Of a stretch of DNA of 41,536 bases, positions 954 to 40,060 are shown piece after piece (position 1 is the stretch's first letter; every line of letters begins with the position of its first letter). Origin of the DNA: Nitrospira sp. LK70 (GTDB lineage Bacteria > Nitrospirota > Nitrospiria > Nitrospirales > Nitrospiraceae); the NCBI GenBank assembly GCA_011090425.1, contig PHGD01000025.1:1-41536 (forward strand), read 5' to 3'. The notes under the pieces are model-generated. The model saw nothing but the letters and a program-made list of their open reading frames with translations. It made no database searches and had not been told where the DNA came from. The translations under genes and the position numbers were made by a program.

Positions 954-1664
954 TCAAGGCTCTGTATAGACGGGTATGGCTTCCAACGGAATTTCCTCTG
1001 TCACTACTTTCCCCTGCACCTCATACACATGGACGCAACGGTTGCTCATCGAGCGCAATATGGTAAACAGCCGATGGGCTGGAGCCGTTGGCATCGGAAC
1101 GGAGGGACAGGGGCAGAGCAACGAAAATCCTTGCAGCGTCAAGTGTCCCACCGATTCGATCATGCGGTCCGTAAGACGCCTGACCTCGTGATCTGTCAGG
1201 CCAGGGGCACATAGCGTTTCAAGGAGGCCGGATATCACTGCCGTGCGAGCTTGATAACGCTCCAAGGCGCCAACCAAACACTGAGACATCAGCCGTTCCA
1301 ATTGTCGTGCACTGAAGGCTCGAGCCACATGGATCATCGTCAGCACTTTCCGAGGCTGTTGCCTGCGACTGCGAGCTAGTCTTCCGATGATGAACGCATC
1401 GAACGCGTGGATTCCATCCAGAAACACGACTGGCTGGCCGGACAGGGCGCGATCGACGAGAACTTGTGCGGCGATTCGTGAGGCAGCCGGATGACCATAC
1501 AATACGGTCAACCGATCAGATGGATTCAGCGCAACCAGAGGGATGGATGGACCTTCTGTTTCAGCTTTTGCATGTCCGGACCGTGACGAGAGTTTGTGAC
1601 GGAGACTTTCCCCGCCTGTGACCGGTAACTGCGCAGTTCCTCCTCTCGCTTCTGTGCCTCTCAT
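954..1664 (-). CDS. Degenerate Rad51/RecA-like protein, last gene of the lexA-like operon
   Basis: A 236-residue protein from the ATG at 1664, chosen for its ggagaagg box seven bases upstream and its 14-base spacing from the previous stop; an ATG at 1691 is the alternative. Residues about 52-130 follow the order of a Rad51/RadA ATPase core. The segment VVFLDGIHAF (79-88) sits where RadA has the IDTEGTF strand. PRKVLTMIHVARAFSARQ follows and matches the family's VLxNIxVARAFNxxHQ pattern. The Walker A lysine region is replaced by GHPAASRI (57-64), and the catalytic glutamate of DTEG is missing, so ATP hydrolysis is unlikely. I infer a non-catalytic recombinase paralogue, perhaps comparable in role to ImuA. 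Its operon with a LexA-like repressor suggests a DNA-damage role. The family itself is not identified. Confidence 0.65.
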   Translation of the reverse strand: MRGTEARGGTAQLPVTGGESLRHKLSSRSGHAKAETEGPSIPLVALNPSDRLTVLYGHPAASRIAAQVLVDRALSGQPVVFLDGIHAFDAFIIGRLARSRRQQPRKVLTMIHVARAFSARQLERLMSQCLVGALERYQARTAVISGLLETLCAPGLTDHEVRRLTDRMIESVGHLTLQGFSLLCPCPSVPMPTAPAHRLFTILRSMSNRCVHVYEVQGKVVTEEIPLEAIPVYTEP

Positions 1665-1678
1665 ACCACGGCCTTCTC

Positions 1679-1861
1679 CTATCCACAGCATCCGCCGGCA
1701 AATACCTGCCGCTGCCGGTATGCATTCCAGCAAGTTGGGCAAAGCTGGACCGCGGAATGCGTAAAGCCGTCGATCGATACCATCCGCCGTTCGACCACGG
1801 TTCCACAATCGGAACAGGGTCCTGTCGTCGTTGATGGTGAGCTATGTTCTTGGACCGTCAT
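1679..1861 (-). CDS. Small four-cysteine (zinc-ribbon-like) protein
   Basis: A 60-residue protein with two CxxC pairs: C16-S-D-C19 followed by Gly, and C41-P-T-C44. It ends in an unusual GGCCG tail. This spacing (21 residues between knuckles) is typical of a small zinc ribbon, so metal binding is likely. Its ATG overlaps the end of the upstream 82-codon gene by 20 bases, which indicates translational coupling. The downstream Rad51-like gene starts 14 bases after its stop. I do not recognise a named family. The position inside a LexA-like operon is the only functional hint. Confidence 0.6.
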   Translation of the reverse strand: MTVQEHSSPSTTTGPCSDCGTVVERRMVSIDGFTHSAVQLCPTCWNAYRQRQVFAGGCCG

Positions 1862-2090
1862 GACTCGCCAGCTTTGTATTCGAACGTATAGGTTGATTGC
1901 AGACTGTCGACATGAACTGGCTTCTCTGCTTGGATCGCATGACGCTTCGAAAACGCTCCATCACTAATCCTATCGTGCTTAGTTGCGATCCCCACTGGAT
2001 GCTCTGCAATCTATTGTCCAGTGCTGCCACCGTTCTTTCCAAATCCATCAAGTGGTCTTTTATTAAGGTTGTTCGCTCTGTTGCGATCAT
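1842..2090 (-). CDS. Small helical protein in the lexA-like operon
   Basis: An 82-residue protein from the ATG at 2090, which has a strong aaaggag box seven bases upstream. The longer frame to 2228 is rejected because it overlaps the lexA-like gene out of frame and lacks a ribosome site. Residues about 5-60 are charged and heptad-like (DHLMDLERTVAALDNRLQ), suggesting a coiled coil; the C-terminal 25 residues are polar and probably disordered. It starts 19 bases after the LexA-like stop and overlaps the next gene. No family recognised. It may act as a dimerising adaptor for its neighbours, which is inference only. Confidence 0.6.
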   Translation of the reverse strand: MIATERTTLIKDHLMDLERTVAALDNRLQSIQWGSQLSTIGLVMERFRSVMRSKQRSQFMSTVCNQPIRSNTKLASHDGPRT

Positions 2091-2109
2091 CGTTGCTCCT
2101 TTCGAGTGA

Positions 2110-2658
2110 TTAGACGGCGCAATGCCGAATGACGCCGATGACAATGCCTTCGATATGAAATTCGTCCGATGGCCGGACGATAATCGGCTGCATGTGGTCG
2201 TTGGCCGGATGAAGTTCAATGCGCCCACTCTTCTTGAAATATGTCTTGATTGTGGCTTCGCGATTGACCAAGGCGACGACGGTTTGCCCGTTTTTAGCCG
2301 TTTCCTGTTTGCGCACGACTACCAGATCGCCTGGCAAAATCCCGTCATCTTTCATTGACTCGCCCTTTATCTTTAAGGCGAAAGTCTCACCGCCTCGCAG
2401 CATGCTCGGTGGTATGTCCACGAGTTCCGATTGCGACACCGGCTCGATGGGTGAGCCGGCTGCGACCAGGCCAGCCATAGGAATCTCGGTTTTCTGTCGC
2501 AATTGATCCAGCACCACCGATACAACACCAGGAATCTTCCGCATGCCGGACTCATATCGCGCCACAGATACCCGTGTGGTGTGCAAGGCATCAGCAAGTT
2601 GCTGCTGCGTGAACCCTAATCCTTCTCGAATACGTTTTAGGTCTCTCGGCTTCAACAT
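2110..2658 (-). CDS. LexA-like repressor with XRE helix-turn-helix and S24 protease domain
   Basis: A 182-residue protein. Residues 5-40 form an XRE-type helix-turn-helix (FTQQQLADALHTTRVSVARYE), unlike the winged helix of canonical LexA. Residues about 60-175 are an S24/LexA autoprotease domain with an Ala67-Gly68 cleavage bond (VAAGSP), catalytic Ser101 (GESMKDDG) and Lys138 (REATIK). All residues for RecA-stimulated self-cleavage are present, so it should repress DNA-damage genes and probably its own operon. Three small genes follow it closely on the same strand. The start lacks a good ribosome site. No second, canonical lexA is in the window, so whether this is the main SOS regulator or a phage-type paralogue is open. 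Confidence 0.85.
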   Translation of the reverse strand: MLKPRDLKRIREGLGFTQQQLADALHTTRVSVARYESGMRKIPGVVSVVLDQLRQKTEIPMAGLVAAGSPIEPVSQSELVDIPPSMLRGGETFALKIKGESMKDDGILPGDLVVVRKQETAKNGQTVVALVNREATIKTYFKKSGRIELHPANDHMQPIIVRPSDEFHIEGIVIGVIRHCAV

Positions 2659-2667
2659 GTATCCATT

Positions 2668-2695
2668 GGTAACATACCTGCTCCTTTTCTGTCAA
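2668..2695 (-). promoter_or_regulatory. Possible promoter and operator of the lexA-like operon
   Basis: On the minus strand a perfect TTGACA (2690-2695) lies 17 bases before a weak TTACCA. Between this and the start codon is a palindrome, ggta-aca-tacc (2668-2678). A related ggtaacacc occurs at 2763-2771. An autoregulatory operator here is plausible for a LexA-like protein, but the assignment is weak. Confidence 0.3.

Positions 2696-38932: not shown

Positions 38933-40060
<1,128 letters not shown>

Follow-up and report, generated by a model that had tools for sequence, protein, structure and literature searches.

What does a RadA-like protein do in a lexA operon when the DNA polymerase that is encoded next to its relatives is missing from the genome? 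The question is raised by four genes near one end of the window, by which we mean the whole stretch of DNA analysed here (positions 1 to 41,536 of contig PHGD01000025.1 of Nitrospira sp. LK70).

The lexA operon and its repressor

The ORF reading of the window places a lexA-like gene, two small genes termed H82 and CxxC and a RadA-like gene on the minus strand, in a tight operon (Table 1). The first 20 nucleotides of CxxC are shared with the end of H82, and ribosome-binding sites are found before H82 (AAAGGAG) and before the RadA-like gene (AGGAGA). The original prediction, made from the letters of the window, had described this four-gene operon, and its coordinates, overlaps and ribosome sites were borne out. 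For lexA, CxxC and the RadA-like gene, the dN/dS ratios lie clearly under 1, and for H82 most of them do. A tRNA-Arg (CCT) gene lies at the contig edge (68-144, minus strand), about 800 bases past the RadA-like gene, and a transposase of the IS110 family is encoded far away at 38948-40060, after the genes of respiratory complex I.

Table 1 Features of the lexA operon, listed from the promoter to the last gene
Feature	Position in the window	Strand	Characteristics
-35 hexamer TTGACA of the lexA promoter	2690..2695	-	TTGACA/TTGACN equally distant in nearly all orthologous loci
Predicted LexA operator TGTTACCAATGGATACA	2658..2674	-	palindrome conserved at the same place in orthologues
lexA-like XRE-S24 repressor	2110..2658	-	182 aa; Ala67-Gly68, Ser101, Lys138
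H82	1842..2090	-	82 aa, helical; conserved tail FMSxVCNxxxRxNTK; no family match
CxxC	1679..1861	-	60 aa; four invariant cysteines (CxxCG...CxxC)
iRadA, orphan (RadA-like gene)	954..1664	-	236 aa; ATPase-dead RadA/Rad51 core; PPB2 and PolB2 missing

The repressor has Pfam matches to Peptidase_S24 (9.3e-30) and HTH_3 (2.9e-8) and resembles LexA sequences of the PDB (1.4e-23). It exceeds the cut-off of the NCBIfam lexA family TIGR00498 (126.9 bits, cut-off 110.95), with an alignment that starts only at position 74 and thus covers the C-terminal part. The self-cleavage signature of the S24 domain, consisting of the site Ala67-Gly68 and the Ser101/Lys138 pair, is intact, just as the original prediction had read it at the head of the operon. 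The DNA-binding part belongs to the XRE type (HTH_3); the classical winged-helix DNA-binding domain of LexA was not found with Pfam and TIGR00498. Judged by these motifs, the repressor is expected to be an XRE-S24 variant that works like LexA.

In nearly all orthologues, the palindrome TGTWACCAWTGGWTACA lies right behind TTGACA and reaches as far as the start codon of lexA. In the window, the predicted operator covers the -10 region of lexA and extends to the A of the ATG, thus the transcript probably has no leader, or hardly any. The operator pattern has no mismatch at lexA, and the entire genome of the window contains just two sites with at most one mismatch; the reversed pattern, used as control, has no match at this threshold in the same genome. 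The only other match, on contig C176, lies just before the ATG of an operon that encodes a putatively inactive Y-family protein (iPolY) and the polymerase DnaE2, and the same pairing of operators, at lexA and at iPolY-DnaE2, is repeated in three relatives (G012, G057, G100). The LexA regulon is predicted to be tiny, and we infer that LexA binds to this operator and is cleaved when triggered by RecA. Further operator-like matches in G057 (L166, L172) and on contig C96 of the window's genome are not near-perfect palindromes and were taken as chance matches; no ORF starts close to the one at L166.

The RadA-like protein is almost certainly an iRadA

iRadA, an ATPase-dead homologue of RadA, is known as part of the PolB2 translesion mutasome, which consists of iRadA, PPB2 and PolB2 and in which iRadA assists PolB2, an error-prone polymerase; lexA is found in the same bacterial operons, for example in the order lexA-iRadA-PPB2-PolB2 in Leptospirillum, and haloarchaea have an extra iRadA-PPB2 pair (Makarova 2014, PMC4104785). 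A model of the PolB2 mutasome has been presented (Timinskas 2025, PMC11791011).

Searched alone, the RadA-like protein of the window has no good family match in Pfam, NCBIfam or PHROGs. When a profile of its family was compared with the PDB, all 18 matches were RadA, Rad51 or Dmc1 (best 5.5e-5), and eight of 13 family members match Pfam Rad51 (best 2.1e-5). In the AlphaFold2 model, the core of the window protein reaches a pLDDT of about 96, and this predicted fold is that of RadA (Foldseek 1.4e-10; Z 19.3, 2.8 Å over 178 residues), so that the RecA/RadA-type fold for which the original prediction had suggested structure prediction as a check was found. The N-terminal helical domain of RadA is absent: the model aligns from residue 40, while residues 1-38 have pLDDT values below 50 and no secondary structure.

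The catalytic motifs agree with the original prediction too: Walker A is replaced by GHPAASRIA, which has no lysine, DTEG is replaced by DGIH, which has no glutamate, and the segment IHVARAF...Q is kept. The loss of ATPase active-site residues that characterises iRadA is thus seen in the window protein, which is expected to be unable to hydrolyse ATP. Its identity is 39% to the PolB2-linked iRadA of G030 and 27-42% to other PolB2-linked iRadAs, and both identity and tree make it an orthologue of those iRadAs that are encoded together with PPB2 and PolB2. We are therefore nearly certain that it is an iRadA of the PolB2 type. It belongs to a described family (PMC4104785, PMC11791011) and is not an uncharacterised single case.

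Relatives have the full cassette, the window's genome has lost PPB2 and PolB2

Of 98 genomes, 18 have an iRadA orthologue, at 20 loci, and lexA is adjacent at all 20. The gene order is conserved rather than scattered, and this recurrence indicates that the operon is more than chance. In a second collection, a search with the single protein gave no match; a search based on the alignment gave 28 named loci, 26 of them with lexA beside iRadA.

Downstream of iRadA, several relatives encode a 96-residue protein that starts with MGRT (PPB2) and then a family-B DNA polymerase (PolB2); PolB2 neighbours match PF00136 with 3e-39 and 5e-38. The cassette occurs in the forms lexA-iRadA-PPB2-PolB2, lexA-H82-CxxC-iRadA-PPB2-PolB2 and lexA-CxxC-iRadA-PPB2-PolB2. 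Most of the 28 named loci continue into PPB2-PolB2. Five of those with a contig that runs on do not, among them Nitrospira moscoviensis NSP M-1 (complete chromosome) and Nitrospira sp. BO4, and genome searches found no PolB2 in the genomes of any of the five. Likewise, the genome of the window (99.98% complete) has no PolB2, no PPB2 and no family-B polymerase at all and, with these two components missing, no working PolB2 mutasome.

In a phylogenetic tree, the PolB2-less iRadAs (ten rows) form one clade with a support of 90/76, and 91% of the bootstrap trees require a single change. The simplest history suggested by these sequences is thus one old loss of PPB2 and PolB2. Elsewhere, iRadA is truncated (G010) or broken (G025) and PolB2 is decaying (G026, G046); the two damaged iRadA genes indicate that iRadA is dispensable. 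A second copy of lexA-H82-CxxC-iRadA, on a 10.6-kb contig of G012 (L024), is close to a gene of the phage integrase family, which hints at mobility. In G037 and G044 (L077, L083), the ORF that comes after CxxC is one antisense to the window's gene at 298-858, apparently a version of the site free of iRadA.

Orphan iRadA is under purifying selection

On the window's branch, orphan iRadA has dN/dS ratios of 0.23-0.31 at dS values from 0.12 to 1.6, with p<=2.7e-5 in close pairs; for pairs of PolB2-linked iRadAs of Nitrospira, the ratio is 0.07-0.23. About 20 positions that are constant in at least 90% of the PolB2-linked iRadAs are changed on the window's branch, including GANxFDPF to GIHxFDAF, TCHQM to SARQL, YD at 152-153 and W233. 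Most of these positions are unchanged on the sister branch, which likewise has no PolB2. When the sequence is aligned with RadA, several of the changed positions fall around the Rad51-type groove (the FxxA groove of RAD51), which we take to be the site that is predicted to hold PolB2. It is very probable that iRadA is retained and functional without PolB2, and the fact that the protein is kept under selection with the polymerase gone suggests that it has taken on a different role in the damage response.

A possible polymerase replacement under the same predicted operator

The operon on contig C176 encodes, behind the predicted LexA operator, a Y-family protein, DnaE2 and a Fic-domain protein. 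The Y-family protein lacks the catalytic acidic residues and is thus predicted to be inactive; it has a clamp-type motif (QLSLF) and a C-terminal end that is RecA-NT-like, LSLALDQIRAKFGERALSWGR. RecA N-terminal motifs of such Y-family proteins bind RecA or ImuA (PMC6511836), and systems of iPolY and DnaE2 that have no ImuA are known (PMC6511836, PMC12926913). iRadA itself is encoded in the lexA operon, outside the iPolY operon.

Strong iPolY matches are present in seven of the eight distinct orphan-iRadA genomes (G000, which is the window's genome, G012, G018, G052, G057, G099 and G100) and in one of the 18 PolB2 genomes (G030), a contrast that follows clades and has a Fisher p of 9e-5, uncorrected for relatedness. 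This distribution fits a change of the LexA-controlled polymerase from PolB2 to iPolY-DnaE2, with iRadA staying. The remaining orphan-iRadA genome (G098, locus L132) has neither PolB2 nor iPolY-DnaE2 according to a genome search.

The Fic/DUF4172 protein is encoded directly after dnaE2 (L115:8527-9696), and G057 and G018 have a related ORF in this position. Many Nitrospira have a second class of lexA, which heads operons of the type lexA2-iPolY-dnaE2-DUF72 (L094-L098 and L102, in G018, G006, G012, G024 and G036); DUF72 is also reported near PolB2 (PMC11791011).

Possible functions of iRadA without PolB2

The explanation that we favour, with moderate confidence, is a LexA-autoregulated, damage-inducible operon in which iRadA was left over from a PolB2 mutasome and was kept as an adaptor, perhaps with iPolY-DnaE2 or RecA as its new partner. 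RecA filaments on damaged DNA would trigger cleavage of LexA at Ala67-Gly68, the operator at the lexA promoter would clear and H82, CxxC and iRadA would be made, while the same LexA would release the distant iPolY-DnaE2 operon. iRadA would then act in translesion synthesis as a structural adaptor that does not hydrolyse ATP; its Rad51-type groove, formerly holding PolB2, would now most likely be offered to the co-induced iPolY-DnaE2 or to RecA. Both the adaptor role and the new partner are what we infer. That iPolY-DnaE2 in particular is the partner is a tentative proposal, and we are, if anything, slightly more cautious about its most specific version, namely that a RadA paralogue of archaeal type was deprived of its family-B polymerase and then recruited anew, with the controlling LexA unchanged, as the RecA-type subunit of the unrelated iPolY-DnaE2 mutasome, which has no ImuA. 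If true, this re-recruitment would be a natural swap of a subunit between two translesion machines.

Somewhat less likely than a role at iPolY-DnaE2 is that orphan iRadA acts on the SOS switch itself, jointly with H82 and CxxC, either by capping or modulating RecA filaments or by tuning the cleavage of LexA. The close tie of iRadA to lexA in both collections, which persists after the loss of the polymerase, would agree with this, as would the survival of iRadA in G098. Moreover, the presence or absence of iRadA in a genome makes almost no difference to the RecA-NT-like tail of iPolY, thus RecA alone may suffice as partner of iPolY. However, the link to lexA is older than the loss of PolB2 and may be inherited rather than functional, and lexA-H82-CxxC is kept throughout the genus without iRadA.

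It is improbable that iRadA no longer has a function and is decaying as a relic of the PolB2 cassette. The loss of PPB2 and PolB2, the damaged iRadA and PolB2 genes of some relatives and the many changed positions are what decay would produce, but the ORFs are intact across the clade, dN/dS is low even in close pairs in which both genomes are PolB2-less, the changes are common to the branch and not random, and the core fold is predicted with high confidence.

It is highly unlikely that the protein is the ImuA of a normal ImuA-ImuB-DnaE2 mutasome, a family to which the original prediction had linked it: it is RecA-like and ATPase-dead, and LexA is predicted to control it along with a Y-family protein and DnaE2, but profile and fold are those of RadA/Rad51, its orthologues adjoin PPB2-PolB2, and no protein of 59 genomes (the window's and 58 relatives) reaches the ImuA cut-off (NF033429). 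There is no ImuA family among the NCBIfam matches of the window protein, and the one weak ImuA match in its genome is an ORF of RecA size on another contig.

Comparison with known systems

The operon shares with the PolB2 mutasome the iRadA family, the dead ATPase site, the absence of the N-terminal RadA domain and the adjacent lexA, and close relatives carry the full cassette; it differs by the genome-wide absence of PPB2 and PolB2, by the presence of H82 and CxxC between lexA and iRadA and by the changes at many positions that are near-invariant in PolB2-linked iRadA. Like the ImuA-ImuB-DnaE2 mutasome, it combines LexA control with an ATPase-dead protein of the RecA superfamily that is predicted to share its regulation with an inactive Y-family protein and DnaE2, but here this protein is derived from RadA and encoded in the lexA operon, and no ImuA was found in the genome. 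ImuA-less iPolY-DnaE2(-RecA) systems (PMC6511836, PMC12926913) likewise have an iPolY with RecA-NT-like tail adjoining DnaE2; the difference is the presence of iRadA under the same predicted LexA operator. The logic is also that of systems in which a RecA-type subunit serves a translesion polymerase, but this operon has no umuC/umuD and its subunit is RadA-type and ATPase-dead.

What is new here is thus a lexA-linked PolB2 cassette that was reduced to iRadA and kept, while the iRadA family was already known. Two papers on the PolB2 mutasome treat bacterial iRadA as a partner of PolB2 (PMC4104785, PMC11791011); a search of PMC11791011 by terms found no mention of Nitrospira or of PolB2-less iRadA, and other literature may exist. 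The long-lived clade without PolB2 and PPB2, which includes N. moscoviensis, separates the function of iRadA from that of the polymerase and offers a natural experiment on the contribution of inactive recombinase paralogues to translesion synthesis. With PolB2 and iPolY-DnaE2 nearly excluding each other and a LexA regulon predicted to be so small, the replacement of a polymerase under one regulator becomes directly testable.

H82 and CxxC

At almost every lexA locus examined in the genus, lexA is followed by H82 and CxxC, with or without iRadA. H82 had been described as an 82-residue helical protein and its AlphaFold2 model is indeed one long helix (residues 2-64). The invariant cysteines of CxxC (C16, C19, C41, C44) are spaced as in zinc ribbons and the protein is likely to be one, judging by this spacing; comparison with PDB sequences gave weak matches only. 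Its dN/dS is 0.11-0.24.

The original prediction had further proposed that the three products downstream of lexA form one complex. Their joint operon stands, but iRadA is an optional addition to a genus-wide lexA-H82-CxxC unit and its own partners PPB2 and PolB2 are missing, so the products need not form one complex.

We rejected H82 as a displaced PPB2, which would make the operon a mutasome short of its polymerase only and is highly unlikely: both proteins are small and helical (about 82 and 96 residues), but they coexist in one operon (G030, G032, G051, L129-L131), H82 has no MGRT start and is found across the genus without iRadA, and the profile comparison gives a probability of 3.6%. In several other families of the order, a Y-family gene and dnaE2 come immediately after lexA.
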